Assembly: GCF_002002925.1 (NCBI RefSeq)
Contig: NZ_CP019511.1
Span: 186,001 to 250,000, forward strand
Length of the DNA: 64,000 nt
Direction of reading: 5' to 3'
Source: Sphingomonas sp. LM7
Lineage (GTDB): Bacteria > Pseudomonadota > Alphaproteobacteria > Sphingomonadales > Sphingomonadaceae
The notes under the pieces were generated by a model. The model made no database searches and was not told the origin of the DNA. It worked only from the letters and a program-made list of their open reading frames with translations. Shown here piece by piece: positions 2,287-54,912 of the stretch (positions are counted from its first letter, which is position 1; each line of letters starts with the position of its first letter). Position numbers and translations under genes: made by a program.

Positions 2287-2322
2287 ATTTTCTTGGGCGC
2301 GGGGGCTTGCGTGTGTTGTTTC

Positions 2323-2334
2323 AAGATATATCTT
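2323..2334. promoter_or_regulatory. Perfect 12-bp palindrome AAGATATATCTT, probable PadR operator
   Basis: The palindrome lies 34 nt upstream of the PadR gene start, in a short AT-rich stretch of an otherwise GC-rich gap. AT-rich dyads of this kind are common autoregulatory sites for PadR proteins. The site is seen directly; its use as an operator is inferred. Confidence 0.55.
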
Positions 2335-2368
2335 AGAGCCATCGAAACGCACACTAGAAGGATTTAAG

Positions 2369-2980: not shown

Positions 2981-3044
2981 CATGCCGCGACTGGAGATGC
3001 TGCGGCGCCGGCTGGGACTGGCGCCGCAGGGGAAGGAACTGGAT

Positions 3045-3368
3045 ATGACGATCACGACCGCGACGGCTTCGGCGCTGGTGCCCACTGCGAGCGCCAGCAA
3101 ATATCTCCAGCAGCTTTGCAAGCACTGGGAGCACAACCTCCAGGTGGAGTTCACTCCCGAGAACGGGACGGTGATCTTCCCCAGGGATGCGCGCGGAGCC
3201 GATCACCCCGGCGATGCAGTGGTGACGTTCAACGTCGCCGAGACCGGGCTCGACGTGCGGATCGACGCCTCCTCGGACGAACAGCTCGAAGGGCTGAAGG
3301 GCGCCGTCGCCCGGCACCTCGACCGCTTCGCCTTCCGCGAGGCGCCGCTCGGGTTCGACTGGCGCTGA
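3045..3368 (+). CDS. DUF2218 domain protein
   Basis: A 107-aa protein that is almost entirely one DUF2218 domain (SASKYLQQLCKHWEHNLQVE, then a C-terminal LKGAVARHLDRFAFRE). DUF2218 is often encoded beside, or fused to, siderophore-interacting flavoproteins, and PadR/YqjI regulators occur in the same neighbourhoods, so a role in iron or metal homeostasis is likely but unproven. The ATG at 3045 has a good SD (GGGGAAGGA). A further in-frame ATG at 2982, just behind the PadR stop, would add 21 basic residues. No reductase gene is adjacent. Confidence 0.8.
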   Translation: MTITTATASALVPTASASKYLQQLCKHWEHNLQVEFTPENGTVIFPRDARGADHPGDAVVTFNVAETGLDVRIDASSDEQLEGLKGAVARHLDRFAFREAPLGFDWR

Positions 3369-10371: not shown

Positions 10372-10414
10372 GTGGGCGGTTCCCTTTCTGTTCCTTGCGC
10401 GCTAAACCACCTTC

Positions 10415-11782
10415 ATGGCGAAGCCGAAGAAGCGATATGTGTGTCAGGCCTGTGGTTCGGTATCCTCGCAATGGGCGGGGCAATGCGCCGATTGCGGCGA
10501 CTGGAACACGCTGATCGAGGATGGCGGCGGGGTGGTGACGCCCTTCCAGGCCAAGCATAATCTCCAGTCGGGCGGGCGGGCGATCCAGCTGGTCGGGCTC
10601 GATACCGACATCGCGCTGCCCGAGCGGATGGAGACCGGGATCGCCGAGCTCGATCGGGCGCTCGGCGGCGGTTTCGTCCATGCCTCGGCAACGCTGATCG
10701 GCGGCGATCCGGGGATCGGAAAATCGACCCTGCTGCTCCAGGCGGCCGCCAAGATCGCGCTGCGCGGACTGAGCGTGGCCTATGTCTCGGGCGAGGAAGC
10801 GGCGGACCAGGTGCGGCTGCGCGCGCGTCGGCTGGGGCTGGGCAATGCGCCGGTGCAGCTGGCCGCGGCGACATCGGTGCGCGACATATTGACGACGCTT
10901 GGCGAGGGGCCGGCGCCGGCGCTGCTGGTGATCGATTCGATCCAGACGATGCATTCGGACCTGATCGAAGGCGCGCCGGGGACGGTGAGCCAGGTGCGCG
11001 CGAGTTCGCAGGAACTGATCCGCTTCGCCAAGGAGCGCGGTACGGCGCTGGTGCTGGTCGGCCACGTGACCAAGGACGGCAGCATCGCGGGGCCGCGCGT
11101 GCTCGAGCACATGGTCGATACCGTGCTGGCGTTCGAGGGCGAGCGCAGCCATCAATATCGTATCCTGCGCGCAGTGAAGAACCGCTTCGGCGGGACCGAC
11201 GAGATCGGCGTGTTCGCGATGCAGACCGAAGGGCTGAGTGAAGTCGGCAATCCTTCGTCGCTGTTCCTCACCCAGCGCGACGAGAGCGTGACCGGCACGA
11301 TCGTGTTCCCGGCGCTGGAAGGGACACGGCCGGTGCTGGTCGAAGTGCAGGCGCTGACCGTGCGGCTGGCGAGCGGGGCGACGCCGCGGCGCGCGGTGGT
11401 CGGCTGGGATTCGGGGCGGCTGGCGATGGTGCTGGCGGTGCTGGAGGCGCGCTGCGGGCTCAGCTTCTCGTCGTGCGAAGTCTATCTCAATGTCTCGGGC
11501 GGCTATCGCGTGCAGGATCCCGCGGCCGATCTCGCGGTGGCGGCGGCGCTGGTCTCGGCGCTGGCCGAGCGGCCGCTGGCGGCGGATGCCGTGGCGTTCG
11601 GCGAGATCGCGCTGTCGGGCGAGGTGCGTCCAGTCGCGCATGGCGCGCTGCGCTGTCGCGAGGCGGCCAAGCTCGGGTTCGGGCGCGCTCTGGCGCCGGC
11701 GGCGCAGGCCGATACCGGCGGGCTGCAACTCGCCGGGTTCAAGAACCTTGCGGCGTTCGTGGACCATCTGCTCGGGCGGTGA
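10415..11782 (+). CDS. radA: DNA repair protein RadA/Sms
   Basis: A 455-aa RecA-like ATPase that promotes branch migration during recombinational repair. The N-terminal zinc finger CQACGSVSSQWAGQCADCG has four Cys. The Walker A is GGDPGIGKST, the RadA-specific KNRFGGTDEIGVF is present near residue 250, and a C-terminal Lon-protease-like domain runs from about 290 (VYLNVSGGYRVQDPAADLAV). Length and all motifs match intact RadA. Confidence 0.96.
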   Translation: MAKPKKRYVCQACGSVSSQWAGQCADCGDWNTLIEDGGGVVTPFQAKHNLQSGGRAIQLVGLDTDIALPERMETGIAELDRALGGGFVHASATLIGGDPGIGKSTLLLQAAAKIALRGLSVAYVSGEEAADQVRLRARRLGLGNAPVQLAAATSVRDILTTLGEGPAPALLVIDSIQTMHSDLIEGAPGTVSQVRASSQELIRFAKERGTALVLVGHVTKDGSIAGPRVLEHMVDTVLAFEGERSHQYRILRAVKNRFGGTDEIGVFAMQTEGLSEVGNPSSLFLTQRDESVTGTIVFPALEGTRPVLVEVQALTVRLASGATPRRAVVGWDSGRLAMVLAVLEARCGLSFSSCEVYLNVSGGYRVQDPAADLAVAAALVSALAERPLAADAVAFGEIALSGEVRPVAHGALRCREAAKLGFGRALAPAAQADTGGLQLAGFKNLAAFVDHLLGR

Positions 11783-41777: not shown

Positions 41778-41867
<90 letters not shown>

Positions 41868-41891: not shown

Positions 41892-43073
41892 TCATCCCGC
41901 TGCTGCATTGACCAGCGGCCGCCGCGCCGCGCGCCATGCCGGCACCGCGCCGCCCAGCACCCCGACGATCATAGCCAGCGTCACTGCCTGGACGATGTCG
42001 TGCGCAGTGAGATCGAACTTGAACATCACCTGGGTGAGGTTGCCGCCGATCGTGCTTGCGCTGCGGCCCTGCAGGAAGATGCCGGCCAGTACGACGCCGA
42101 GCCCCGCGCCGAGCAGCACCAGAAGCACGGCCTCGGCCATTGTGCTCACGAAGATCGAAGGGCCGCGAAAGCCGAGGATGCGCAAGGTCGCGATCTCGGT
42201 GGAGCGCGTCGATACCGACGTGAACATCGTGTTGAGCGCGCCGGCGAGCGCGCCGATAGCCATCGCGATGCCCAGCGGCCAGCCGACGAACAGGATGAGC
42301 TTGCCCATGTTCTTGGCCTGGCGGGCGAAATATTCGCGCTCGGAGCGGGCCACCAGCTTCAGGCTGGTATCGGCGGCGATATAGCTTTGGAGACCGGCGA
42401 GCGCGGAAGGATCGGTCAGGCGCGCGCGCACCGATTGCACCGCGGCGCTGGAACCGAAGAACTGGCCGACCAGCTTGCGATCGGCCCAGACTTCGGATTC
42501 CATCGCCGAACCGCCCGCTTCGAACACGCCGACCACGCGCCAGTCCATACCCGCCACCCGGATGCTCGCGCCGGGCTTGAAGTCGCGGTAACGCGCTGCG
42601 ATCGCGCTGCCGACCACCAGTTCGTTGCGTCCTGCCACGAACATGCGCCCGCTCGCCAGGCGGGCCAGCGGGCGCACCGCCAGACCCTGTGGCCCCATGC
42701 CGCGCAGCGTCACGCTCGATTCGCTGCCACCGTCCTCGACTGCGCTGATCATCGCGAAGCTCTCGGCCGAGAGCAGCGGCCCGTTCTTGTCGACTGCGAT
42801 CCCGGGTGCGTTGTCGAGCCTGGCGAGCCGTGCGGTGTCGATCGCGCTGTTGAACTCGGACGCCGATCCTTCGGCAAGGATGATCGCGCTCTGGTCCGAT
42901 CCCGTGCCCGCGACCGTTGAGCGGAAGCCCGATGCCATCGCCAGGAAGCCGAGCAGGACCAGCGTGGCGAGCGCGATGCTCAGCACTGTGGCGGAGGACA
43001 TGCGCGCACGCGACGGCAGCCCGAGCAGCGCGATGCGCGCCACTGCGCCGATCTGTTTGACGCTGCTGAACAT
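41892..43073 (-). CDS. ABC transporter permease, MacB/FtsX-like (second subunit)
   Basis: A 393-aa permease of the MacB/FtsX class: TM1 near residues 30-50, a periplasmic domain of about 210 residues, then three C-terminal TM helices (LILFVGWPLGIAMAIGALAG, EAVLLVLLGAGLGVVLAGI, VTLAMIVGVLGGAVPAWRA). EIATLRILGFRGPSIFVSTM is the coupling helix. It is the last gene of the minus-strand cluster and overlaps the previous permease by 1 nt. It works with the ATPase at 44230-44946. Confidence 0.9.
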   Translation of the reverse strand: MFSSVKQIGAVARIALLGLPSRARMSSATVLSIALATLVLLGFLAMASGFRSTVAGTGSDQSAIILAEGSASEFNSAIDTARLARLDNAPGIAVDKNGPLLSAESFAMISAVEDGGSESSVTLRGMGPQGLAVRPLARLASGRMFVAGRNELVVGSAIAARYRDFKPGASIRVAGMDWRVVGVFEAGGSAMESEVWADRKLVGQFFGSSAAVQSVRARLTDPSALAGLQSYIAADTSLKLVARSEREYFARQAKNMGKLILFVGWPLGIAMAIGALAGALNTMFTSVSTRSTEIATLRILGFRGPSIFVSTMAEAVLLVLLGAGLGVVLAGIFLQGRSASTIGGNLTQVMFKFDLTAHDIVQAVTLAMIVGVLGGAVPAWRAARRPLVNAAAG

Positions 43074-44233
43074 CACTTCCTCCCCAATGCTTCGACGATG
43101 TTGACGCGGCTTGCCTTGAGTACCGGTAGGATGCCGGTCAGCAGGATCAGCAGCGCCGCAAGCCCCGCCGCCATGGCGAGGGTCGCCGGGCCCATCGCAA
43201 GTCCCGGCAGCATGTCCTTGAGTGCAACGCCGATGGCGGAGACGATCAACGCGGCGGCGCTCATCCCGGCGACGGCGCCGGCGAGGGTGATCAGCGCGAC
43301 TTCGCCGGCGAAAATCCGCGCGACGCGCAGTCGCGAGAAGCCGAGCGTCTTGAGCACGCCGATTTCGCCGGTCCGCTCGCCTACCATAAAGATCAGCGTG
43401 TTGCCGACGACGCACAGGATCACGACGAACGCCGCGCCGACGATCAGGCGGACGATCAGCATCAGGTCGCCGATCTGCGACAGGAAGGCGCGGCCGAGCG
43501 CGGCTTCGCTCTGGGTGCGCGTCGCGGCCGCCGAATTGGCGTAGCCGGCGTCGATCGTGCGCGCCATCGCATCGTTGGCGGTCAGGTCGCGGCCCGTGAC
43601 AAGGATCCAGTTGATCCGGTCGCGCCCGGTGAGCAGCGCTTCGTTGAAATAGGCGAAATGACCCGCCATGCCGAGTTCGCTGCCGCCGGGCTGGGTGGAG
43701 GTGTAGATTGCGGCGACCGTGAAGCGCCACGCCCGCGTGCCGTCTTCGCGCAAATCATTGAAACTTTGCAGCGTAACCTGGTCGCCGCGCTTCCAGCCAT
43801 AGCGATCGGCCAGCGCGCGGCCGACCAGCAGGCCGTCCCGCGTGCCGACAAAGCGCGCGCGGTCCTCGTCGGTGACGGTCACCACATCCTTCGACATGCC
43901 CAGATAGGTCTCGGGTTCGACCATCACGGCCGAGACGATGTCCTTGGGCTCGCGCCAATAGACGAGCGCCATGCGCACCGGGCTCGAGGTGGCGACATTG
44001 GCCTGCCGGGCGACGTCGCGGGCATAGGCGATCGGCAGCGTCTGCTGGAAACCGTTGCGGTTGACCACCATCATCCGCTCCTGCGCGCCGGGCTGGTCCT
44101 CCAGCCGGAACGCGGTGGCGACCGCGCTCAGCACGCCAAAGATCAGAAAGGCGATGGCGATGCATGCCACCATCAGGAACATGCGGACCGGATTGCGCAG
44201 CGCGTTGCGCCGGACGAGCGTGGTCTCCCTCAT
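43073..44233 (-). CDS. ABC transporter permease, MacB/FtsX-like (first subunit)
   Basis: A 386-aa permease with TM1 at about residues 18-38, a large periplasmic loop, and a C-terminal FtsX domain (VGNTLIFMVGERTGEIGVLK, TLGFSRLRVARIFAGEV, LLILLTGILPVLKASRVNIV). With its paralogous neighbour it should form a heterodimeric mechanotransmission transporter. The ATG overlaps the ATPase stop by 4 nt. Confidence 0.9.
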   Translation of the reverse strand: MRETTLVRRNALRNPVRMFLMVACIAIAFLIFGVLSAVATAFRLEDQPGAQERMMVVNRNGFQQTLPIAYARDVARQANVATSSPVRMALVYWREPKDIVSAVMVEPETYLGMSKDVVTVTDEDRARFVGTRDGLLVGRALADRYGWKRGDQVTLQSFNDLREDGTRAWRFTVAAIYTSTQPGGSELGMAGHFAYFNEALLTGRDRINWILVTGRDLTANDAMARTIDAGYANSAAATRTQSEAALGRAFLSQIGDLMLIVRLIVGAAFVVILCVVGNTLIFMVGERTGEIGVLKTLGFSRLRVARIFAGEVALITLAGAVAGMSAAALIVSAIGVALKDMLPGLAMGPATLAMAAGLAALLILLTGILPVLKASRVNIVEALGRK

Positions 44234-44946
44234 GCCGCGATCGCTTCGTCGACGAAGCGTCCCTTTTCGAGGTGGAGCACGGTGTCGGCGGCACGCGCGG
44301 CGACGGGATCGTGGGTGACCATCACGATCGTCTTGCCGAGCTCGTCGGCGAGCAGCCGCAGGATCTCGAGCACCGAATCCGCGCTGGGCCGATCGAGGTC
44401 GCCGGTGGGCTCGTCGGCGAGGATCAGCTTGGGATCGGCGACCAGCGCGCGGGCAATTGCGACGCGCTGCTGCTGTCCGCCGGAAAGCTCGCGCGGGCGG
44501 TGCTTGGCGCGGTCGGCCAGACCGACGACATCGAGGGCGGTCTCGACGCGGCGGCGGCGCTCCTTCGCGCTCATCTTGTGAAGCAGCAGCGGCAGCTCGA
44601 CATTCTGCGCCGCGGTGAGCATCGGCATCAGGTTGTAGAACTGGAAGATGAAGCCAAGCGTGTTCGCCCGCCACTGCGTCAGTGTCGATTCGCTATAGCT
44701 GTCGATCCGCTCGCCATCGACGGCAAGCATCCCGCTGTTCGGACGATCGATGCCGGCGAGCATGTTGAGCAGCGTGGTCTTGCCCGATCCCGACGGACCC
44801 ATCAGCGCGACGAAGCGGCCGCGCTCGATCGACAGCGAGAGCTTATCGAAGATCGGCACTTCGGTGTTGCCGCGGCGATAGCTTTTGGAGAGATCGACGA
44901 TGTCGATGAGAGTGTCGGCGGCGGGAACGCGCTGCATGAAGTTCAC
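44230..44946 (-). CDS. ABC transporter ATP-binding protein, LolD/MacB-like
   Basis: A 238-aa nucleotide-binding subunit: Walker A GPSGSGKTTLLNMLAG, Q-loop FIFQFYNLMPMLTAAQNVEL, signature LSGGQQQRVAIARAL, Walker B LILADEPTGDLD, H-loop VTHDP. It energises the two permeases downstream and is coupled to the adaptor gene by a 4-nt overlap. Confidence 0.95.
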   Translation of the reverse strand: MNFMQRVPAADTLIDIVDLSKSYRRGNTEVPIFDKLSLSIERGRFVALMGPSGSGKTTLLNMLAGIDRPNSGMLAVDGERIDSYSESTLTQWRANTLGFIFQFYNLMPMLTAAQNVELPLLLHKMSAKERRRRVETALDVVGLADRAKHRPRELSGGQQQRVAIARALVADPKLILADEPTGDLDRPSADSVLEILRLLADELGKTIVMVTHDPVAARAADTVLHLEKGRFVDEAIAA

Positions 44947-45989
44947 GACCGGTCTCCTGTGGGAAGGAATGCCGCCTTGGCGGCCATTTGCGGGAGGATG
45001 CGCGGATCGCTGCGCACGAACGCGATGTTGACGCGTACCGTGGCGCGGTTGCGGTCCGCCGAGGGGACGATCGCGGCGACCGCGGCCTCGAACCGCTCGC
45101 CGGGAAGCGCATCGAAGGTCAGTACCACGCGCTGGCCCGAGCGAATGCCGCTGATATAGGCTTCGTTGACGTCCGCCTCGACCTGCAGGCTGGCCATATC
45201 CACCAGGGTGACCACGCCGGTGCGGGTGAAGCCGCCGCCCGCGGAGATCGGCGAGACGAGTTCGCCGACTTCGGCATTCTTCTCGATCACCACGCCGGAG
45301 AACGGCGCGCGGATCGCATAGCGATCGAGCATGACATGCGCGGCGCGTACCGATGCCGCCGCGCCGCTGAGCGCGGCCTCGGCAGCGGCGATGCGCGCGC
45401 CCAGCATGCCGCTTTCGGCCTGACTTTCCTCCAGCGCCGCCATGGTGGTGAAGCCGCGCTGGCTGAGCGCCTGTCGGCGGGCGAGCGTGGCGACGGCCTG
45501 GCGATGCTGGTGACGCAGCGCGGCGACGGTCTGGCGGGCCTCGGCCTGGGCGGCGATCGCGCGGTCGAGTCCGGCGCGCGCGTCCGAATTATCGACGCGG
45601 GCGATGATCTGGCCGGCCTGGACGTGGTCGCCCTCCGCGACGAGGACCTGGCGCAGCTGCCCGGTGACCTGTGACCCCACGGTGCCGCCGCGCTGAGGCA
45701 CGACGAAGCCGGCGGCGACCAAGCTCGCCACCGGCGCATCGGCGGAGGGTTGCGCCGGTCGAGCGGGCGGGGCGGCGACCGGTGCCGCCGTGCCCGTGGC
45801 ACCGCCCAGCAGCGCTGCCGTCGCAACGCTGCCAAGCGCGAGGCTGGCCATGCCGGTGAGGAGCAATGGGAGCATGGAACGGCGGCCATTGCGCTCGGCG
45901 CGAAGGACGGGCGCCGGCTTGGGCACGGACCGCATCGGCTCGCGGTCGAGCTTGAGCTCGCGCAGGCGATCGGCGACGGTGGCGGTCAT
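44943..45989 (-). CDS. HlyD/MacA-family periplasmic adaptor
   Basis: A 348-aa membrane fusion protein. A cytoplasmic N-terminus of about 40 residues precedes TM 42-65. The split biotinyl-lipoyl domain shows GGTVGSQVTGQLRQVLVAEG and YAIRAPFSGVVIEKNAEVGE, with an alpha-hairpin (about 125-205) between and a beta-barrel domain after. It links an inner-membrane pump with an outer-membrane channel; no TolC-like gene is in the cluster. It overlaps its neighbours on both sides by 4 nt. Confidence 0.9.
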   Translation of the reverse strand: MTATVADRLRELKLDREPMRSVPKPAPVLRAERNGRRSMLPLLLTGMASLALGSVATAALLGGATGTAAPVAAPPARPAQPSADAPVASLVAAGFVVPQRGGTVGSQVTGQLRQVLVAEGDHVQAGQIIARVDNSDARAGLDRAIAAQAEARQTVAALRHQHRQAVATLARRQALSQRGFTTMAALEESQAESGMLGARIAAAEAALSGAAASVRAAHVMLDRYAIRAPFSGVVIEKNAEVGELVSPISAGGGFTRTGVVTLVDMASLQVEADVNEAYISGIRSGQRVVLTFDALPGERFEAAVAAIVPSADRNRATVRVNIAFVRSDPRILPQMAAKAAFLPTGDRS

Positions 45990-46477
45990 TGGTCTGCCTC
46001 CGTCTTGCGCTCGCAGCGCGCCCGCGCGGCGGCCCACACCAGGCCCGCGCCCGCGCCCAACAACAGATGCGGTGCGGTGGCGACAGCGCCCGCGTTCCAC
46101 AGCAGGCTGCCGCTGGTTGCGGCGAAATAGTCGAACGGCGCGGCGCACAGCACCGCGACCGCGGCGACGAGGCCGGCTACCATCCCGGTGGGAGCGCGCC
46201 CGCCGGGCAGTGACAGCCGCGGCAGGACATAGAGGAGCAGCAGGAACAGCGCGCCGAAAGCGATCTTGGCGTAGGGCGGCACCTTATCCGCCACCGTGAA
46301 CACCGCCATGGGGATGCCGCGGACTTCGGTCTCGGCGCCGGTCTGCAGCCACCGCACCGCCGCAGACACATAGGTGAACGACGCCCAGCCGATCATCCAC
46401 CCGATCAGCGTGCATTTGTGCGTCGCCAGGCCCGAGAGCGTCGCTCCCCGGGCCGGACGCGTGAAAGGCGCGGTCAT
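45986..46477 (-). CDS. Four-TM hypothetical membrane protein
   Basis: A 163-aa integral membrane protein with TM segments at about residues 22-44, 70-92, 97-120 and 128-150 (for example KIAFGALFLLLLYVLPRLSL). Family unknown. It lies between the ABC exporter and adaptor with 4-nt overlaps on both sides, so it is made with the export machinery. A role as an immunity or transporter accessory subunit is an inference. Confidence 0.75.
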   Translation of the reverse strand: MTAPFTRPARGATLSGLATHKCTLIGWMIGWASFTYVSAAVRWLQTGAETEVRGIPMAVFTVADKVPPYAKIAFGALFLLLLYVLPRLSLPGGRAPTGMVAGLVAAVAVLCAAPFDYFAATSGSLLWNAGAVATAPHLLLGAGAGLVWAAARARCERKTEADQ

Positions 46478-48267
46478 GCGGACTTCTCCTGAATGAACTG
46501 GCGGTGGACGAGGCGGCGATAGAAGCCGGCGCCGGACAACAGGGCCTCGGGGGCGCCGCGCTCGACGATTTCCCCTCCGTCGAGCGCGACGATCTGGTCC
46601 ATGGCCTCGAGCCCGGCCATGCGATGGGTGACGAGGATGCAGGTGCGGCCGCGCATCAGCGCTTCGAGGCCCTGCAGGACGAGATGGGCGTTCTCCTCAT
46701 CGAGGCTCGACGTGGCCTCGTCGAGGAGCAGGATCTCGGGATCGCGCAGGAACATCCGCGCAATGGCGAGCCGCTGGCGCTCGCCGCCCGACAGCCGCGC
46801 GCCGCGCTCGCCGACCTGGGTGTCGAGGCCGAGCGGCAGTGCCGCGACGAACCCGTCCGACCGCGACAGCGCGAGTGCGCTGGCGATCGCCTCTTCGCCG
46901 ACGGGGCGGTCGATCCCGTAGAGCAGATTGTCGCGGACGCTGCCCGAGAGCATCGCCGAAGTCTGCGCGACATAGCCGATCCGGCCGCGCCATTCGCGCA
47001 ACGGGATCGCGGTGATGTTGTCGTCGCCGTGGCGGATGCTGCCCTGGTCGGGGGCATAGAAGCGCTCGACCAGTGCGAGCATCGTCGACTTGCCCGAGCC
47101 GCTGGGGCCGATGATCGCCGTGCGGCTGCCCGGCGCGAAGACAAGCGTGTCGAGCGACAGCGCGACGCGATCGCCATAGCTGAACCGGACACCGTCGAAG
47201 GTCAGCGCCTTGGGCGTGCGGCTGGCGGTGCGCGGCGCGGGCGGCGCCGACCATTCGGGGGCGAGGCGCAGCACTTCGGCGAGCCGCGTCGAGGCGCCGC
47301 GCGCGACCGAGAGCTGCGAGAAGAAGCTCGTCAGCTGGGCGAGGGGGCCGACTACGGTGAAGATGTAGAGCAGGAAGGCGGTGAGCGTGCCCGAAGAGAG
47401 CGTTCCCGCGGCGACGCGCATCCCGCCATAAGCGAGAATCGTGACCAGCGAGATCGTCACTGCCAGCGTCATCACCGGGCTGAGCGCAGCTTCGATTCGG
47501 GCGGAGCGGCAGCCGAGCGCGAACAGCGCGGAAATGCCGGTATCGGCCCGGCGGCGCTCGCGCTCCTCGGCGCCGAAGGTCTTGACCATCCGCATTTCGG
47601 CGAAGATCTGGGTGAGGCGGCCGCTGAGCTTGGCGGTCTCGTCCTGGGTGCGATACGCTACCGCCGCCATCGTCAGCATCACCGGAAGCATCGCGAGGAA
47701 CGCCGCGCCGATCACCCCGAACAGGATGCCGGCGAGCGCCCCGTCCATCGAGAACAGCACCACCGCGGCGCCGGTCAGCAACAGCACGGCCGATCCGGCG
47801 TTGAGGCTTTCGCGCGAGATGAGCTGTGCGACGGCCTTCGTGTCGTTGATGACGCGGCTGGTCACTTCACCGCTCGCCAGGCCGTCGAGATAGGTGACGG
47901 GGGCCGCCACCAACCGCTCGATCGCCGCGCTGCGCAGCCGCGCGCCGAGCGCGAGGCCCGAACGGCTGGTGAGATAGCGCGCCACCGCCGCGGCGACCGC
48001 GGCGGCGAGGAGGACGAGGACCAATTGCACGACCACCGGCTGGCCGAACACACCGCCGGAAACCGACACTGCGCCCGACCCGTCGACGATCGTACGGGTG
48101 AGCAGCGGAAAGCCGAGCGTGCCGCCCACCTCCACCAGGGTCAGCAGTGCCGCGAAGCACAGAGCCGCGCGATCGATGCGGACATGGCCCAATACCGAGA
48201 ACAGGTCGGCATAGGACGCAGGCCCCTTTTTGGGGCCTGCGGTGTCGGTGGGCGCCGCGCGGGTCAC
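46474..48267 (-). CDS. ABC exporter, fused permease and ATPase
   Basis: A 597-aa type I exporter half-transporter. Residues 20-330 form a six-TM domain and 355-590 the nucleotide-binding domain: Walker A GPSGSGKSTMLALVERFYAP near 390, signature LSGGERQRLAIARMF near 494, Walker B ILLLDEATSSLD near 514, and VTHRMAGLEAM. No N-terminal C39 peptidase domain is present, so any leader removal needs another protease. The GTG at 48267 overlaps the preceding stop (GTGA). It probably exports the cluster peptides. Confidence 0.92.
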   Translation of the reverse strand: MTRAAPTDTAGPKKGPASYADLFSVLGHVRIDRAALCFAALLTLVEVGGTLGFPLLTRTIVDGSGAVSVSGGVFGQPVVVQLVLVLLAAAVAAAVARYLTSRSGLALGARLRSAAIERLVAAPVTYLDGLASGEVTSRVINDTKAVAQLISRESLNAGSAVLLLTGAAVVLFSMDGALAGILFGVIGAAFLAMLPVMLTMAAVAYRTQDETAKLSGRLTQIFAEMRMVKTFGAEERERRRADTGISALFALGCRSARIEAALSPVMTLAVTISLVTILAYGGMRVAAGTLSSGTLTAFLLYIFTVVGPLAQLTSFFSQLSVARGASTRLAEVLRLAPEWSAPPAPRTASRTPKALTFDGVRFSYGDRVALSLDTLVFAPGSRTAIIGPSGSGKSTMLALVERFYAPDQGSIRHGDDNITAIPLREWRGRIGYVAQTSAMLSGSVRDNLLYGIDRPVGEEAIASALALSRSDGFVAALPLGLDTQVGERGARLSGGERQRLAIARMFLRDPEILLLDEATSSLDEENAHLVLQGLEALMRGRTCILVTHRMAGLEAMDQIVALDGGEIVERGAPEALLSGAGFYRRLVHRQFIQEKSA

Positions 48268-49181
48268 GCGCGCAGGCTCTCTAGGCGAGTGAGCTTGTGC
48301 TGTGCCCAGCCTGCAACCAGCGCGCTGTCGCTTCGGGCACCCTGCTGGAACACTTCCATCGTGGTCTCGAGGTCCGGCTGCTTCGCGGCCATTGCCTTGA
48401 GCGCGGCGAAGCGCACCCGTTCCGAGAGATGCGACCGTGCCGTTTCGATGAGATAGTCCTGGGCGTTCTCGCCGCCCACCTGGGCGACCATCGGCATCAG
48501 CGAACACATCGACATGCGATTGATCATGTTGCCGACGAAGTTGCGCTCGACGTCGAAGCCGTACTGATCGACCACGCTGCCGCGCACGGTTAGCTCCATG
48601 ATGTTGAGGCTGATCGACATGCTCTCTGGCGGCAGCTGATCGTGGATGTCGTAGCAGGCGCGGTAGAGCATCACCTTGCCCTCGTTGAGCGAGCTCTTCT
48701 CGACGAATTTGAGATCCACCGGCTCGCCGGGATAGCCGGCGGTTTCCTCGTAATCATAGGTGTAATAGTTGCTGCTGTAGCCCGGGCCGAAATGACCGAC
48801 GGTCAGGAAGTTGAACGAATGGTCATGCGGGTGATGGTAAAAGAACTGCTCGGGCCCGCTGGCGCGCAACAGGTGGTCGTTTGACGACGGCCAGAAATTG
48901 GCGCGCAGGAAGAAGGTCTGCTGACGCTTGGTCGGCGCGTAGAGCATGATGACCTGTGGCCCGTAGTTGTTCGAGCCGTTGCCGATGCCGGTACGCTTCT
49001 TGAGTTCGTCGAGCGCCATGTCGCCGAGGAAGGTACGGTTGTTGCTCAGCCGCTTGAGCATCGGCGCCGCGGCGATCATCTGATCGTGATCCGAAGTGTC
49101 GATATTCTCGTCGTGCAGATATTCGATGATTTCGCCGAGCTCGATCGCGTCGGTCTGCGGAGAGTCGATGACTAGGGGCAT
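48264..49181 (-). CDS. Putative peptide-modifying protein P1 with PHDH motif (family uncharacterised)
   Basis: A 305-aa soluble protein, paralogous to that at 51380-52306. Shared blocks include YGPQV, FFLRANFWPSSNDHLL, GPEQFFYHHPHDHSFNFLT, GPGYSSNYYTYDYEE and YRACYDIHDQLPP...SISLNIME. His119 and His121 plus a later His (about 178) recall the metal site of cupin-like oxygenases, but I recognise no family. The C-terminal 80 residues look HEAT-like (RVRFAALKAMAA). The ATG at 49179-49181 has the SD AGGAGA. It is coupled to the exporter gene by a 4-nt overlap. Confidence 0.75.
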   Translation of the reverse strand: MPLVIDSPQTDAIELGEIIEYLHDENIDTSDHDQMIAAAPMLKRLSNNRTFLGDMALDELKKRTGIGNGSNNYGPQVIMLYAPTKRQQTFFLRANFWPSSNDHLLRASGPEQFFYHHPHDHSFNFLTVGHFGPGYSSNYYTYDYEETAGYPGEPVDLKFVEKSSLNEGKVMLYRACYDIHDQLPPESMSISLNIMELTVRGSVVDQYGFDVERNFVGNMINRMSMCSLMPMVAQVGGENAQDYLIETARSHLSERVRFAALKAMAAKQPDLETTMEVFQQGARSDSALVAGWAQHKLTRLESLRA

Positions 49182-49209
49182 GGTGGCGTCTCCTATCGGT
49201 GGGTGAGCG

Positions 49210-50190
49210 TCATTCGGCCGCGATGGCCGGCATTTCGTCGCTGAGCATTTCGATCGTGCGCTGCGCGGCGCGGCGCACCGCCGCCTGCGGATCCTGGTCA
49301 CGCATGCGCTCGAGATGCGGCCATGCGCGTTCGAGGTTGAGCCCGAGATATTCCCGCATCGTGTGCCAGCGGACATAGTGTGAGGGATGTTCGAGCAGCC
49401 GTTCGAGCTGGTCGCAGCTGTCCTGCCGGCCGAACAGGCGCATCGCGGTGGCGAGCATCTGCAGGCGCGTCGGCTCCTGCGCGGGCGAGCTGGCGCCGAC
49501 CATGCGGCGCGTATCGAAGTCGAACTCGAGCGCCATCGGCATGCCGCCGCGGTACATCTGGATCTGCAGCACCAGCGCATGCGATCCGGCCTTCGCGGCA
49601 TATTCGAAGGATTCGTTCGCCTTGAAGTGGAGCGCGTCGCCGGCCTTGCAGTCGAACCGCTCCCCTTCCTCGAAGCGCAGGTCGAGCGTGTGGAGGTCGT
49701 CGTCGTCGCCGAAGGTCGGGATTTTCCACGATTGCAGCGGAAATTCGTGCGAGCGGAAGAATTTGAGATAGGTCTCCTGGCCGCCGAAGGTCAGCGTGCG
49801 CCGCTCGCCATAACGCTGCTTGGCGAGATCGATCTCGAAGCCGTCGAGCGCCAGCAGCATCGCCGTGAACTGATCGGTGGAGGCGAGCACCATGCCGCCG
49901 AAGAACTCGCCGCCGATCGGCTGGAACGACGAGCCGTAAAAAGGATTGCGGTCGGCGCAGCGCTGCTCTTCGGCAACGATCGCCTGGATGCGGTCCTCGG
50001 TGAAGAAGACGTCGCACAGGCGAAATACTTCCGCCGGCGTCATGTCTTCGTTTGCTGCCAGGACTCGCTTGAGATCGCCGAAGCCGAGATCGTCATTGTA
50101 ATAGCTGACGCTGCGCTTGTTGTCTTCCAGCAGGCCGGGACGGAACTCGGGAGCCGTCACTACCGCCATGATGTCCTTGAGATTCTTCAT
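49210..50190 (-). CDS. Putative peptide-cluster protein P2, HEAT-like C-terminus
   Basis: A 326-aa soluble protein without a recognised domain at the N-terminus (MKNLKDIMAVVTAPEFRPGL, PIGGEFFGGMVLASTDQFTA). A middle part (FDCKAGDALHFKANESFEYA, ALVLQIQMYRGGMPMALEFD) looks like a beta-rich, cupin-type barrel. The C-terminus has HEAT-like repeats (HPSHYVRWHTMREYLGLNLE, QDPQAAVRRAAQRTIEMLSD). It is related in layout to P4 (52294-53271) and lies between peptide A and P1, so it may act on the peptides. Confidence 0.7.
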   Translation of the reverse strand: MKNLKDIMAVVTAPEFRPGLLEDNKRSVSYYNDDLGFGDLKRVLAANEDMTPAEVFRLCDVFFTEDRIQAIVAEEQRCADRNPFYGSSFQPIGGEFFGGMVLASTDQFTAMLLALDGFEIDLAKQRYGERRTLTFGGQETYLKFFRSHEFPLQSWKIPTFGDDDDLHTLDLRFEEGERFDCKAGDALHFKANESFEYAAKAGSHALVLQIQMYRGGMPMALEFDFDTRRMVGASSPAQEPTRLQMLATAMRLFGRQDSCDQLERLLEHPSHYVRWHTMREYLGLNLERAWPHLERMRDQDPQAAVRRAAQRTIEMLSDEMPAIAAE

Positions 50191-50257
50191 GTCATCTTCC
50201 TCATGTCGATCGAGGTCCCGAAGGTTCGCCCCGTCCAGAGTGGAAAGGCGGTCCTGC

Positions 50258-50389
50258 TCAGTAGAAGACCGCGAGGATCAGCCCGATCGGCACCACCATC
50301 AGGCCCGTGACGACCGGCTTGCACTTGAGCGAGCCGGGCGCACCGACTTCGAGCTCGAGTGCCGGCAGGGTTTCGACGTTCACGGTCAT
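50258..50389 (-). CDS. Small peptide A, 43 aa, candidate precursor
   Basis: MTVNVETLPALELEVGAPGS is followed by a short Cys-containing, Lys-rich segment (LKCKPVV) and a hydrophobic tail (GLMVVPIGLILAVFY). It shares LPAL(D/E)LEVGAPGS with peptide B. The ATG at 50387-50389 is placed 7 nt behind AAAGGA; an ATG two codons upstream is too close to the SD. It is shorter than usual gene-calling limits. Possible roles are exported bacteriocin-like or modified peptide; no activity is known. Confidence 0.75.
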   Translation of the reverse strand: MTVNVETLPALELEVGAPGSLKCKPVVTGLMVVPIGLILAVFY

Positions 50390-50423
50390 GGTCATTTCCT
50401 TTCTTGTCCGATCGGCAGAGTGT

Positions 50424-50454
50424 TTGCGGGCGCGGCAATCCGCCGCGCCCGCAA
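50424..50454 (-). terminator. Strong hairpin directly behind peptide B
   Basis: A perfect 13-bp stem (TTGCGGGCGCGGC and complement) with a 5-nt loop begins 4 nt past the peptide B stop. No T-run follows, so it may be an attenuator or a 3' stabiliser rather than a full terminator. Confidence 0.75.
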
Positions 50455-50458
50455 GCGG

Positions 50459-50611
50459 TTATTCGGCGCTGATTGCGTCGTTGGTGACCGCGATCACGAC
50501 GCCGATGATGATGCCGGCGATGACCTGGCCAGCGACGACCGGGGTGTGACGGGCCGAGCCGGGAGCGCCGACTTCGAGGTCCAGGGCGGGCAGATTGTTG
50601 GTGTTGATCAT
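50459..50611 (-). CDS. Small peptide B, 50 aa, candidate precursor
   Basis: MINTNNLPALDLEVGAPGS, then ARHTPVVAGQVIAGIIIGVV and a polar end (NDAISAE). The N-terminal half is acidic and leader-like; residues 27-42 are hydrophobic. The SD AAAGGGGAAA is good. It is most similar to peptide A and is followed by a strong hairpin. Confidence 0.8.
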   Translation of the reverse strand: MINTNNLPALDLEVGAPGSARHTPVVAGQVIAGIIIGVVIAVTNDAISAE

Positions 50612-50634
50612 GGAATTTCCCCTTTGAGAGTATG

Positions 50635-50787
50635 TTAGAGCTGGTCGACGTCGGCGAAGAAGATCGCGCCGATAATCGAAGCAATGCCTGCGGTGAGGCT
50701 GCAAATAACGGCTTCTCCGCGCTGTTCAACGAGCATGCCGACTTCGAAGTCGAGGGAGGGCAAGTTATGTACCTGATGGTTGCTCAT
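50635..50787 (-). CDS. Small peptide C, 50 aa, candidate precursor
   Basis: MSNHQVHNLPSLDFEVGMLV is followed by EQRGEAVICSLTAGIASIIG and AIFFADVDQL. It keeps the LPxL(D/E)xEVG motif of peptides A and B but has a different core with one Cys and a GIASIIGAIFF segment. The SD is GGAG. It is the first peptide after the putative operator and lies 23 nt upstream of peptide B. Confidence 0.8.
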   Translation of the reverse strand: MSNHQVHNLPSLDFEVGMLVEQRGEAVICSLTAGIASIIGAIFFADVDQL

Positions 50788-50831
50788 GTTAAGTCTCCAG
50801 TTGTTGAGCCTAAGCTCGTTTGCCTGTCGAT

Positions 50832-50851
50832 TTGTCAGCTCTTTCTGACAA
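50832..50851. promoter_or_regulatory. 20-bp inverted repeat TTGTCAG-N6-CTGACAA, candidate operator
   Basis: Perfect 7-bp arms lie between the regulator gene and peptide C, 45 nt upstream of the peptide C start. Position and symmetry fit a MarR-type binding site. Binding is inferred. Confidence 0.6.
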
Positions 50852-50872
50852 CTGGATGTTGCGACCATTCAA

Positions 50873-51367
50873 CTATACAGTCAATGCGCTGAGGTTGTTG
50901 TTGCGCTCAACTTGAGACCAGTTCCGCGATGCGCCGGGAAGGCGTGCGAGCGTGCGGGCCACTTCGAGGAAATAATGCTCCAGCGCGGCGCGCGATTCGG
51001 GGCTGAGCTCGACCCAGGTGCGGCGTCCGTCGCAGCTGTCGGGCTCGCTGCTGAGCGTGCCTGCCTCGATCAGCGTGCCGACCCAGCGGACGCCGGTGCT
51101 GCGTGGTACGCCGGCGGCCAGCGCAAGGTCCGAGATCGAGACGCGGACGCCCTTGCGCTCGGACAGATACAGGTCGAGCAGCATGTCCCACACCGGGTCC
51201 GCCATCTGGAAATCGGCCAGCAGGCGGCGGCGCAGGCTGCGCGAGCGGGCGATGTCCGACGCGACGCGGCGGCACCATTCGGAATCGGACGGCGGCGCCT
51301 CCGCAGTGTCCCAGGTGCCCGTCGCCTGAAGCGGGGCGTTGGTGGGCAGGGTGATATGCACGAGCAT
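50873..51367 (-). CDS. MarR-like winged-helix transcriptional regulator
   Basis: A 164-aa protein. Residues 55-150 form a MarR-type wHTH: MLLDLYLSERKGVRVSISDL, ALAAGVPRSTGVRWVGTLIE, then a wing (CDGRRTWVELSPESRAAL). The first 50 residues are not conserved with classic MarR. The SD GAGGAGG is near perfect. It lies 12 nt behind P3 and just before the palindromic site and peptide C, so it is the likely local regulator. Confidence 0.85.
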   Translation of the reverse strand: MLVHITLPTNAPLQATGTWDTAEAPPSDSEWCRRVASDIARSRSLRRRLLADFQMADPVWDMLLDLYLSERKGVRVSISDLALAAGVPRSTGVRWVGTLIEAGTLSSEPDSCDGRRTWVELSPESRAALEHYFLEVARTLARLPGASRNWSQVERNNNLSALTV

Positions 51368-51379
51368 CGCAGCACCTCC

Positions 51380-52306
51380 TCAGTGAACAGATCTCTGGAT
51401 CCAGGGACGCCCGGTCTCGACCGCCGCGCATTGGCGTGCGGCCATCCGGGCAATGAACGGATTGGCGTCGCGCGATCCGCGCTCGAACACCGCGAGCCGG
51501 TCTTCCAGGCTGGCCTGGGACGAGGCGAGCGCCGTGATCGCGCTGAACTGGATCCGGTCGCTCGGGTGGTGCGCCGCATAGGACTGGACCAGATCGCGGC
51601 CATCGCCGCCGCCCAGTTGCGCGCACAGCGCCAGCAGCGGCTCGATCGCGCTGCGAGTGAGATGCGCCGCGACGGTCTTGCCCGTCGCATCGAAGCGATA
51701 TTGGTCGCGGAAGCTCAGATGCGGCGCGCGCTCCATGATGTTGAGCGATACGGAGAGTTCGTCGGCGGGCAGCTGCGCATGCACATCGCGGTGTGCGCGG
51801 TAGAGCATGATCTTGCCCTGCTCGAGCCGCGACCGCTCGACGAACTGCAAGTCGACTTCGTCGCCGATCGCGCCGGCGAAGCTGTCATACTCATATTCGT
51901 AATAGTCGCTCCAATAGCCCGGGCCCATGTAGCCGGCGGTCAGGAACGAGAAATTATGGTCGTGCGGCACGTGATAGAAGAACGCCTCGGGGCCATTCTC
52001 CTGGAGCAGCCGATCATCCTCGGACGGCCAGAAATTGGCGCGGATGAAGAAGTCGCGCGACTGGTGGAGGATCACCACCTGCGGGCCGTAGACATTCTGC
52101 GCGCTCTGATCGCGGCAGCGCTGCTTGAGCTCGGCGACGATCAGGTCGGCGAGGAAGTCGCGATTGTTGGCAAGCGCCTTGAGGCCGTCGCCGAACGACG
52201 CGAAACAATCCTCGTCGCGCGCGTCGAACCGGCCGGTCTCGAGCGCTTCGACCAGTTCGCCGAGCTCGGCGCGATGCTGCGTGGCGGTTTCGATTATGCG
52301 TGGCAT
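51380..52306 (-). CDS. Putative peptide-modifying protein P3 with PHDH motif
   Basis: A 308-aa paralogue of P1. It keeps LANNRDFLADLI, YGPQVVILHQSRDFFIRANF, GPEAFFYHVPHDHNFSFLTA, GPGYWSDYYEYEYD and YRAHRDVHAQLPADELSVSL. The conserved His-X-His with a later His in an HAQLP/HDQLP context supports a metal site. The C-terminus has HEAT-like helices (PSDRIQFSAITALASSQASL). Its start overlaps the P4 stop by 13 nt. Confidence 0.75.
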   Translation of the reverse strand: MPRIIETATQHRAELGELVEALETGRFDARDEDCFASFGDGLKALANNRDFLADLIVAELKQRCRDQSAQNVYGPQVVILHQSRDFFIRANFWPSEDDRLLQENGPEAFFYHVPHDHNFSFLTAGYMGPGYWSDYYEYEYDSFAGAIGDEVDLQFVERSRLEQGKIMLYRAHRDVHAQLPADELSVSLNIMERAPHLSFRDQYRFDATGKTVAAHLTRSAIEPLLALCAQLGGGDGRDLVQSYAAHHPSDRIQFSAITALASSQASLEDRLAVFERGSRDANPFIARMAARQCAAVETGRPWIQRSVH

Positions 52307-53271
52307 GCGCGTGCCTCCGTTGCGAGTACGCCCAGCGCGTTTCTCGCCGCGGCGCGCAAATCGGGGTGCGGATCTTCGTCGGCCATCGTGTGGAGCCGCG
52401 CGCGGGCACGGCCTTCGTTCAGGCGGAACAGCTCGGTGGTCGCGTGCCAGCGCAGGAAGAAGCTGTCGTCATGCGTGAAGGGCTCGACCACCGCATCGTC
52501 CTCGCTGCGGCCCAGCGTGGCGAGGAAGGAGAGCAGCATCTGGCTGCGCGAGGCATTGTCGCTGGTGCTGCACGCGGCGACGGCAGTGAAATCCTCTGAA
52601 TCATATTCGATCAGCAACGGCGCGCGATCGAGCAGGATTTCGGCCTGAAGCACGACGATATCGGCGATGGCGTGCTCGATGACATAGCTCTGGGTACGCC
52701 CGTCGAGCGTCAGGATGTCGCCGTCTTCCAGCGCGCGATGCCCGGCCGGGCGGCACGCCAGACCATCGTCGAGGCTGAAATTGTCCGATACTGCGGGCGC
52801 GCTCCACATCCGGAGCAGGCCGCCGCCGGCGCGCAGGAACTTCTGCACCGAGACGGTACCGGTGAAGGTGATCGCCGCGGGACCGCTGCGCTGCATCTTC
52901 TTGGCCGCCAGCACATCGACCGGCAGGCTGTTCAGCGCGATGTTGACGTGGCGATGGGCGAAGACGGCGACGCCGCGCTGGAATCCGTTGCTGGTCGGCG
53001 CGAGCGGCGGCTCGAAATAGGCGTCGTGAAGCGCGTCCTGCGCCATTGCCGCGATCCAGCCGTCGATCCAGTCGGTGTCGGCAAAGGCTGACGCTACCAA
53101 CTCGCGGACGGTTTCAGCGGTTGGATCGACGAGTGCGTCGAGCGCTGCGTGGAGCGAAGCCAGCGCCGGCTGGAGGCGCCAGTGGTGCGCGGGCAGGCTG
53201 GTGGGGAGCGCGCCGCCGCGGGGCCGCTGCGCCTGGGTGAAATAGTGCCGAAGTTCCTGCCTGGAAATCAT
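52294..53271 (-). CDS. Putative peptide-cluster protein P4, HEAT-like C-terminus
   Basis: A 325-aa soluble protein with the same layout as P2: helical N-terminus, a central beta-rich part (DILTLDGRTQSYVIEHAIAD, IVVLQAEILLDRAPLLIEYD) and HEAT-like repeats (DDSFFLRWHATTELFRLNEG, DPHPDLRAAARNALGVLATE). The ATG at 53269-53271 has the SD GGAGGA. P2 and P4 are far less alike than P1 and P3. Confidence 0.7.
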   Translation of the reverse strand: MISRQELRHYFTQAQRPRGGALPTSLPAHHWRLQPALASLHAALDALVDPTAETVRELVASAFADTDWIDGWIAAMAQDALHDAYFEPPLAPTSNGFQRGVAVFAHRHVNIALNSLPVDVLAAKKMQRSGPAAITFTGTVSVQKFLRAGGGLLRMWSAPAVSDNFSLDDGLACRPAGHRALEDGDILTLDGRTQSYVIEHAIADIVVLQAEILLDRAPLLIEYDSEDFTAVAACSTSDNASRSQMLLSFLATLGRSEDDAVVEPFTHDDSFFLRWHATTELFRLNEGRARARLHTMADEDPHPDLRAAARNALGVLATEARACHA

Positions 53272-53385
53272 ACATCCTCCAAGGCCAGGCACGGGTCCGC
53301 GCACACCGCACCGTTGTCGGCGGCGGCGGGATCATTGGCTGGCTTGTATGCAGACGTTTAAGTTCGAGCGTCCGGCGTGGTGCCG

Positions 53386-53412
53386 GGCCGGGAGCGGCGA
53401 CCGCCCCCGGCC
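53386..53412 (-). terminator. Strong GC hairpin directly behind peptide D
   Basis: GGCCGGG/CCCGGCC outer and GCGG/CCGC inner pairing around a CGA loop begins 6 nt past the peptide D stop. No T-run follows. Its position matches the hairpin behind peptide B. Confidence 0.65.
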
Positions 53413-53418
53413 GATCGG

Positions 53419-53559
53419 CTAGCCGCCGATCAGGTAGGTGCCGACAATCACGCCGATGCAGACCGGTCCTCCGACCTCCTGCCGGGTGACATGGCCGCAA
53501 AAGCCCACCGGCGTGCGGAGGGTGAAAGCGGAAGCGTGTACGTTGCTGGTCTTCGTCAT
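53419..53559 (-). CDS. Small peptide D, 46 aa, candidate precursor
   Basis: MTKTSNVHASAFTLRTPVGF, then CGHVTRQEVGGPVCIGVIVG and TYLIGG. Two Cys (residues 21 and 34) flank a GG. It lacks LPxLDxEVG but matches the others in size, strand, SD quality (GGGGGA) and hydrophobic Gly/Ile/Val tail. It precedes P4 by 147 nt. Confidence 0.7.
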   Translation of the reverse strand: MTKTSNVHASAFTLRTPVGFCGHVTRQEVGGPVCIGVIVGTYLIGG

Positions 53560-53801
53560 CGATGTTCCCCCGAAAAGCAGCCGGCAGGACCGGCCAGTAC
53601 CTCCCAAATCGCGGCCCCCGGCGCACAAGTCTCCGCTTCGCCGATCGCGTGATATCGCGTTCGGCGGACCGGTGTCCGTCTGAGGCTTTCGACGAGAACG
53701 GCTGTTCAAAGCCGTCAATCAATTAGTCTCACTGCGGGAGAAAACCTGTCGCACTATTTCGAATTATTTTTCGAAAGGCGGAACTTAGCGGCGCGGCGCC
53801 T

Positions 53802-54416
53802 TCAAAGGCCGAGCATCAACTGGTCGATCGCAGTTTCGCGCCGATGGTCCGCGAGCACATCGGACAGCTGGCGAATGACGGCGCGCTGGCGCCGCAGCCG
53901 GAAGATCAGGAAGGCAATCGTGGCGGCGAGCACCGCGAGGCCGAGCACCGCCGACCAGCTGAGCAGCGTATCCAGCAGGTGCGGGCCGAGCGGGCGTCCG
54001 TCGCGCTGGCTCAGTACCGCGAACAGCATCCCGAGCAAGGTCGCCGGCCCGAACAGCGTGATGTCGAACAAGGTGCGGCGGACGCGGGCGCGGTATCGCC
54101 GGATCTGGCCTTCGAGGAAGCTTTCGCGATCGCGCTGGTCGGCGCCCCATTCGACGCGGCGGAGACGATAGCGGGTGCGTGCCGACCAGAGCAGCAGCAG
54201 GACGATCATCACGCCGACTGCGAGAGATCCCAGAGTGAACTTCCGCCAGATGCCGAAGACGACGAAGACGGTCAGGCAGGCGCTGACCAGCAATTCGGCG
54301 CGTTCGATCCAGCGCGCGCGGCGCAGCGCCCGCTCCGACGCTGCCGACACTTCTTCGGCCGGATGCGCGACGCTGCCGCGCCACAGCTCGGAGAGATCGT
54401 CGTACTCACCGTCCAT
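53802..54416 (-). CDS. Membrane protein partner of the sigma factor, possible anti-sigma factor
   Basis: A 204-aa protein. Residues 1-35 are acidic and soluble (MDGEYDDLSELWRGSVAHPA), followed by four TM helices near 42-60, 62-80, 118-138 and 150-172, and a charged C-terminus. It is coupled to the sigma gene (11-nt overlap), the classic sigma/anti-sigma order, but no zinc-binding anti-sigma HxxxCxxC is present. The role is inferred from position. Confidence 0.7.
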   Translation of the reverse strand: MDGEYDDLSELWRGSVAHPAEEVSAASERALRRARWIERAELLVSACLTVFVVFGIWRKFTLGSLAVGVMIVLLLLWSARTRYRLRRVEWGADQRDRESFLEGQIRRYRARVRRTLFDITLFGPATLLGMLFAVLSQRDGRPLGPHLLDTLLSWSAVLGLAVLAATIAFLIFRLRRQRAVIRQLSDVLADHRRETAIDQLMLGL

Positions 54417-54912
54417 GTGCCGCCCCCATATGTTCGACGAGCGACGCCTTGGCCCGCTGGCAGCGGAGCATCGCGGCATTGGCGGTGATCCCCAATGTCT
54501 CGCCGATTTCGATGAACGAGAAGCCTTCCAGCATCAGCGTTGCCGTCTCCCGCTGGGCCACACTCAACTCGCGCATCGCCGCCAACAGCCGTGCCCGTCG
54601 ATCCGCGACAATCGCCGCTTCGTCGGGCTGCAGGTCGGCAGTGGGAAGCTCTTCGTCCAACTCCTCTGTAACAGGACTTCGCACGCGGCGCGAGACGTGC
54701 GTCACTGCGCGCTTCTGGGCAATGCTCGCGACATAGGTCTTGAGCGAAGACTGGCCGCGAAAGGACGGCAGCGCGCGCCATACGGCGAGGACTATCTCCT
54801 GCTTGAGATCCTCGCGCTGGCTGGGATCGGCTTCATAGGCCAGCGCTATGCGCGAAAGCAGCCCGGAGTGGGACCGTATGACGTCGTCAAAGCTTATAGC
54901 GCTCTGGCTCAA
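54406..54912 (-). CDS. ECF-type RNA polymerase sigma factor
   Basis: A 168-aa sigma-70 family factor. Region 2 is REDLKQEIVLAVWRALPSFR with FRGQSSLKTYVASIAQKRAV; region 4 is MRELSVAQRETATLMLEGFS followed by FIEIGETLGITANAAMLRCQ. It lacks regions 1 and 3. It is upstream of the peptide cluster on the same strand, 850 nt before peptide D, and may control it. Confidence 0.9.
   Translation of the reverse strand: MSQSAISFDDVIRSHSGLLSRIALAYEADPSQREDLKQEIVLAVWRALPSFRGQSSLKTYVASIAQKRAVTHVSRRVRSPVTEELDEELPTADLQPDEAAIVADRRARLLAAMRELSVAQRETATLMLEGFSFIEIGETLGITANAAMLRCQRAKASLVEHMGAAHGR

Follow-up and report, generated by a model that had tools for sequence, protein, structure and literature searches.

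A candidate peptide-modification system in Sphingomonas sp. LM7: small peptide genes beside a predicted thiol-dioxygenase-fold protein and its partner

Members of the thiol dioxygenase superfamily, known for acting on small thiols, also act on N-terminal Cys, and a Ser-x-His-x-Tyr arrangement is catalytic in thiol dioxygenases. Lasso peptides have the leader motif YxxPxLxxxG, and double-glycine leaders belong to bacteriocins with C39 exporters. In the accessible part of its description, PbsQ of the pbs cluster is a cupin-like hydroxylase related to a JmjC-domain protein (PMC12257519). Here we analysed a stretch of 64,000 nucleotides (the window; NZ_CP019511.1, positions 186,001–250,000) from Sphingomonas sp. 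LM7, whose genome is one contig of 4,155,514 bases. It contains a cluster of 17 genes, in which four small peptide genes (A–D) accompany two pairs of larger genes, P2/P1 and P4/P3. In other bacteria, too, such peptide genes adjoin a P1-type/P2-type pair, in which the P1-type protein has the predicted fold and metal site of thiol dioxygenases with altered catalytic residues; this suggests an unrecognised route to modified peptides.

We consider it fairly probable that the cluster peptides are modified by such pairs, with P1/P3 catalysing an oxidation at residues other than Cys, and are then exported. The ribosomally encoded peptides A–D would be modified inside the cell. P1/P3, as cupins of thiol dioxygenase fold, would bind iron (or another metal) via three histidines and, with O2, would oxidise a peptide residue that is not generally Cys. 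P2/P4 would hold the peptide, probably via the motif [IL]PxL[DE]x[ED]V[GA] near its N-terminus. P2/P1 would act on A–C and P4/P3 on D, and the products of the window would leave through ATP-binding cassette (ABC) and MacAB-like pumps. We read the cluster as two units, D–P4–P3 and A/B/C–P2–P1, with common exporters and regulators.

Conservation of the peptide, partner and enzyme genes

In the wide loci, a P2-family gene lies directly upstream of 41 of 42 P1-family genes, and an open reading frame (ORF) of at most 70 amino acids precedes the partner gene on the same strand in 40 of them. The same layout is seen at 10 of 374 other genes of at least 200 amino acids, taken as control. The count leaves aside the window itself, window-type clusters L006, L007 and L008, as well as L005, L009 and short loci, and keeps L041 and L042, which carry clusters orthologous to that of the window; the genes outside the window type number 38 of 42. 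Because L043–L059 were collected by P2 search, the partner count is biased there; at the loci found with the P1 profile (L100, L102–L117), the partner is present at 18 of 19 genes, the neighbour in L107 being under the cut-off. Excluded from the wide view were the matches in G953, G1084 and G531, a weak second match of G909 and many genus matches. Locus L071, for the G531 match (E 7.8e-4), yielded no P1-family gene.

Two of the 40 upstream ORFs are wrong. In L052 the next ORF upstream (10100–10252) is the true peptide gene, and at the L105 gene at 4020 the ORF resembles a signal-peptide protein, while two genes for peptides lie nearby on the opposite strand. The two P1 genes without an upstream ORF (in L104, and in L105 at 12977) have peptide genes just downstream. 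Partner, enzyme and peptide ORF are each present in L101, L118 and L119, where the caller missed the P1 gene; these were read from plain ORF lists, the peptide ORFs being chosen by eye among small ORFs. The original prediction would have been refuted by P1/P3 homologues lying mostly away from small peptide genes and exporters; as regards the peptides, it is supported by these genes and the three additional loci. In many loci a short gene of precursor type adjoins genes for candidate modifying proteins, the arrangement looked for in ribosomally synthesized and post-translationally modified peptides (RiPPs). Several peptides may share one enzyme pair, as do A, B and C at P2/P1, and three peptides each in L100 and L104. 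In L064, P4 and P3 are fused in one 598-amino-acid ORF (1435–3231).

A peptide gene beside an exporter had also been taken as the usual layout. This is not general, because an ABC or resistance–nodulation–division (RND) exporter was found near 12 of the 42 P1-family genes and 8 of the 38 outside the window type, in a BLAST test (1e-8) with five ABC/RND proteins from nine genes before to eight after, which detects these exporter types only. In L100, an HlyD adaptor, an ABC ATPase and a MacB permease precede the peptides, and an ABC ATPase and a further gene follow P1. On an Alteromonas plasmid (L086), an ATPase named macrolide ABC transporter and a permease lie upstream of the peptides, and ABC_tran and ABC-2 genes after P1. 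In the phylogeny P1 groups with these two copies (support 0.90), which both adjoin MacB-type pump genes and a second ABC transporter; P3 groups weakly with solo Sphingomonas copies (support 0.60). L114 has an ABC exporter with Peptidase_C39 and an HlyD protein beside the peptide, on the opposite strand.

Elsewhere in the genome that holds the window lies a third P1-family gene (L040, G000:C1:3120000-3139000, at 9058–11065) with its own partner and a 52-amino-acid peptide (MKLVQIDQSEIVELDTQVAVHG...). It is next to fatty-acid genes, its neighbours including thioesterases, an enoyl-CoA hydratase and a protein whose DNA-binding domain is of OmpR type. Other loci show further arrangements. In L105 (3358–19346; 16 kb, 41% GC) there are three pairs of P1 and P2 genes with four or more small peptides, besides a pump of HlyD/MacB type and a second ABC ATPase. 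In L109 (82–8024) the unit lies near a 1694-amino-acid ORF and three small ORFs that contain a stretch of GGG; one of the three immediately precedes P2. In L106 (6236–8924) two genes of 459 and 438 amino acids follow P1 on the same strand. The P1-family copies at G030:C3:56464-57351 and in L081 (1504–2370) were each marked by the genome search with one in-frame stop codon and are perhaps decaying.

The P1 profile matched 43 of 151 genomes of the genus sample, 6 of 385 of the class sample, 15 of 398 of the phylum sample, and, in another two families, 6 of 149 genomes and 6 of 147 genomes; these samples overlap, and G531 (E 7.8e-4), in the class sample, is an uncertain match. The P1 family has 1732 database matches, some misnamed ‘transposase’. 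That name, given by NCBI to P0001 and others, was rejected in view of the cupin/HEAT model and of the lack of a transposase match in Pfam or NCBIfam. A locus in S. gei shares 97% identity with P1.

Predicted fold and active site of P1–P4

The original prediction treated P1–P4 as paralogues. They form two families of like architecture rather than four close paralogues: P1 and P3 are 44% identical, P2 and P4 22–23%. The P2/P4 family has no conserved histidines, so that P1–P4 are not four equivalent enzymes; P2 and P4 are probably non-catalytic partners of P1 and P3.

The structural model of P1 (predicted local distance difference test, pLDDT, 92.5) comprises a cupin of the CDO (cysteine dioxygenase) type and C-terminal HEAT helices, and its structure matches are thiol dioxygenases. 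His-119, His-121 and His-180 are invariant in all 52 rows of the P1-family alignment (51 distinct genes, since rows L079 and L115 represent one gene), and eleven further residues are identical in 52/52. In a profile alignment the three histidines correspond to His-91, His-93 and His-144 of L121, a relative of 3-mercaptopropionate dioxygenase. The segment Ser191-x-Asn193-x-Met195 aligns with the Ser-x-His-x-Tyr of thiol dioxygenases, His and Tyr being replaced. Position 193 is Asn in 52/52, position 191 is Ser in 48 and Thr in 4, and position 195 is Met, Leu or Ile in the printed segments.

No P1 match to CDO_I was found at E up to 1, and none in the genome of the window at E 0.001. P1–P4 matched no Pfam, NCBIfam or PADLOC family above cut-off, and with an E limit of 0.1 PADLOC, which covers anti-phage defence, matched none of seven cluster proteins. 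By predicted fold, P1 and P3 belong to the known thiol dioxygenase superfamily; their altered catalytic residues and the lack of a family match above cut-off set them apart from it. Pfam and NCBIfam scans of ten proteins each, the MacB ATPase and permeases lying outside them, found no lanthipeptide, radical SAM, YcaO, lasso or MNIO enzyme. As no Pfam, NCBIfam or PADLOC family covers P1–P4, the proposal of a new class, first made from the lack of any visible RiPP enzyme, is plausible.

Peptide genes, shared motif and competing explanations

In comparisons of the window's peptide genes with their orthologues, silent substitutions predominate in B, C and D, and less so in A. Against L041, peptide C has 18 synonymous and 1 nonsynonymous substitutions, D has 15 and 3, and B has 8 and 3. 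The ratio of nonsynonymous to synonymous rates (dN/dS) against the more distant L042 is 0.11 for C, 0.26 for B, 0.33 for D and 0.60 for A. Peptide A (20.1 synonymous and 41.9 nonsynonymous against L042) is the least supported; the regular expression LPxL[DE]x[DE]V, applied to L041, L005 and L006, matched B and C and no A-like frame. The start of A is also uncertain, the gene caller using the second ATG (50389).

A de novo search in 26 representative peptides sharing under 40% identity, of which the window contributes three, gave the motif [IL]PxL[DE]x[ED]V[GA] with a score of 138 against a mean of 89.2 (SD 3.7, maximum 93.9) for 15 shuffles; the real set had a slight advantage (20 restarts and 25 rounds against 8 and 20). 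By our count, Leu or Met occupies the fourth motif place in 19 of 26 sites, D being among the seven without. Outside the window type, 30 of 53 peptides, many of which are related, contain the pattern LxxxV[AG], against an expectation of 3.4; this set omits the window, L041 and L042, and the wrong ORFs of L052 (68 amino acids) and L105 (59 amino acids) were replaced or dropped. A motif near the N-terminus is thus shared among the representative peptides, with the exceptions noted at its fourth place, the remainder diverges widely, and the motif may act as a leader. Peptides resembling LPxLDxEVG, whose recurrence had been proposed as a check, are indeed found outside the window cluster: in L100, three (IPSLEMEVG, IPTLDFDVA, VPCLDMDVG) precede P2 and P1, and A–C align with them (z 4.2 to 8.6).

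Several observations weigh against modification and export of the peptides. No product or modification is known, and no cluster gene was recognised as encoding a leader protease. The BLAST test found no ABC or RND exporter at any of the 18 solo Sphingomonas units (L040, L043–L059), and most of these units share a core-gene neighbourhood (by printed sequences, which cover L048–L050 in part, most of L043–L058 are alike and L059 differs), which would also suit a house-keeping role. The Foldseek TM-scores are modest (4tlf, 0.41 by query and 0.61 by target), and the link to thiol dioxygenases from sequence is weak: alignment A1 against A4 gave E 0.086, and a broader profile a local E of 2.4e-4 with probability 43. 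The two L086 peptides align poorly with A–C (z 0.3 to 2.0). Peptide D lacks the strict motif and shows no clear pairing with solo peptides, the mean z being 1.48 with these and 3.24 with L100/L086 peptides; gene order makes it a candidate substrate of P4/P3.

In an explanation that we regard as rather unlikely, the peptide is a small stable subunit or regulator of a P1/P2 complex acting on a small molecule, with no peptide product. The exporter-less units in their recurring neighbourhood, the neighbours of L040, the overall purifying selection on the peptides and the small thiols used by known thiol dioxygenases all agree with it. However, several different peptides per pair and their wide divergence outside the motif fit substrates better, and some units adjoin exporters. 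We find it less likely still that the peptides are unmodified, bacteriocin-like or membrane-active, with P1/P2 as immunity or chaperone binders and the cupin as a dead scaffold. The hydrophobic C-termini of the peptides and the leader of double-glycine appearance beside the C39 exporter in L114 would suit this, whereas the invariant histidine triad and the eleven further residues identical in all rows would be unexpected in such a scaffold.

The fold and the three-histidine site, together with Cys in peptides A, C and D, might instead point to true thiol dioxygenases that convert peptide Cys to sulfinate. This seems very improbable: Cys is absent from B and occurs in only 11 of the 53 peptides, so that thiol oxidation cannot be general, and the His/Tyr pair is replaced by the invariant Asn and an aliphatic residue. 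Oxidation of other residues by P1/P3, with P2/P4 as peptide-holding partners, is the reading that we prefer; peptide modification by P1–P4 and the roles of both pumps are inferences.

Gene layout of the window cluster and comparison with known systems

As originally described, all 17 genes lie on the minus strand; they were confirmed from the ORF list and by a codon-usage-based gene caller trained on the window, which chose all of them including the small genes A–D (Table 1). From P1 to the last permease, successive genes overlap by 4, 4, 4, 4, 4 and 1 nucleotides in the gene-caller coordinates, within the 1–4 nucleotides originally described. P4 and P3 overlap by 13 and the sigma factor and membrane protein genes by 11 nucleotides; the membrane protein is possibly an anti-sigma partner. 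The TTG start of the sigma factor gene is kept in L041 and L042. The winged-helix protein is probably a regulator. The fused ABC exporter has no C39 peptidase match in Pfam. The MacB-like ATPase and the two permeases, being outside the Pfam and NCBIfam scans, are named by homology or after the original prediction: the L100 ATPase resembling the former matches ABC_tran, and the L100 and L105 permeases resembling permease 1 match MacB_PCD and FtsX. The last permease gene is 24 bases away from the end of a tRNA-Ser(cga) gene (41778–41867, plus strand), whose 3' end is not repeated within the window and is absent from the fetched orthologous clusters.

Table 1. Genes of the cluster, with positions in the window.
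Feature	Position	Strand	Basis and remarks
ECF-type (extracytoplasmic function) sigma factor	54406..54912	-	TTG start; sigma70-ECF TIGR02937 E 5e-22, Sigma70_r2
Membrane protein	53802..54416	-	Orthologue in L041, L042; no Pfam family above cut-off
Peptide D, 46 amino acids	53419..53559	-	Gene caller and substitution test
P4, P2-family protein	52294..53271	-	Weak HEAT_2; alignments with P2
P3, P1-family protein	51380..52306	-	Similarity to P1; histidine triad retained
Winged-helix (MarR-like) protein	50873..51367	-	MarR_2 E 4.7e-4, under cut-off
Peptide C, 50 amino acids	50635..50787	-	LPSLDFEVG
Peptide B, 50 amino acids	50459..50611	-	LPALDLEVG
Peptide A	50258..50395	-	LPALELEVG; 45 amino acids from first ATG, 43 from second
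P2, cupin without conserved histidines, HEAT helices	49210..50190	-	Model pLDDT 87.9
P1, three-histidine protein of predicted thiol dioxygenase fold, HEAT helices	48264..49181	-	Structural model (see text)
Fused ABC exporter	46474..48267	-	ABC_membrane, ABC_tran
Protein with four transmembrane segments	45986..46477	-	Topology from original prediction; no Pfam match at E 1
HlyD/MacA-like adaptor	44943..45989	-	HlyD_D23 E 5e-20 (scan used an earlier start)
MacB-like ATPase	44230..44946	-	BLAST, 38, 45, 43% identical to ATPases of L086, L100, L105
MacB-type permease 1	43073..44233	-	29, 35, 28% identical to permeases of L086, L100, L105
Permease 2	41892..43073	-	Orthologues in L041 (91%), L042 (72%)

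We rate the P1/P2 system as a candidate new RiPP-like class. The broader proposal, a widespread unreported class in Pseudomonadota that combines a CDO-fold three-histidine metalloenzyme of altered catalytic residues with a degenerate cupin partner, O2-dependent modification at residues other than Cys and the [IL]PxL[DE]x[ED]V[GA] leader, has in our estimate an even chance of being correct. No description of the P1 family was found in the full-text literature, in which subscription papers are mostly out of reach, so that a prior description is possible. If the proposal holds, the superfamily, known for small thiols and N-terminal Cys, would gain a family of enzymes that modify peptides, a function would be assigned to the 1732 database matches of the P1 family, and the sequence of peptide, P2-type and P1-type genes would provide a three-gene signature for genome mining. 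The solo Sphingomonas units would then raise the question of what a conserved, modified peptide does in the cell when no exporter lies beside its gene.

Among described systems, the cysteine, 3-mercaptopropionate and mercaptosuccinate dioxygenases (CDO superfamily, PF05995 and relatives) resemble P1 in fold and three-histidine site. P1 differs from them in its C-terminal HEAT helices, in having a partner gene and a peptide gene, in the replaced His and Tyr of Ser-x-His-x-Tyr and in the lack of a CDO_I match. As in lasso leaders, the motif is built around Pro-x-Leu and lies close to the N-terminus of a short peptide; however, the spacing to Gly is off by one, and none of the scanned proteins matched a lasso enzyme. 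The L114 peptide, with LTLDEADVVSAGA, adjoins a Peptidase_C39 ABC exporter and HlyD as in double-glycine bacteriocins, whereas the window exporter has no C39 match. TMcin, judging from the accessible part of its description (PMC13252029), is a different system from the window cluster. The MNIO (DUF692) RiPP enzymes and PbsQ, as far as the available portion of the report shows (PMC12257519), share with the P1 units the combination of an oxidative metalloenzyme, putative in the case of P1, with a partner and a short precursor gene. They belong to other families, P1 best matching thiol dioxygenases. In the Foldseek comparison of P1, the JmjC-type structure 1vrb_A has rank 39 and a TM-score of 0.18.

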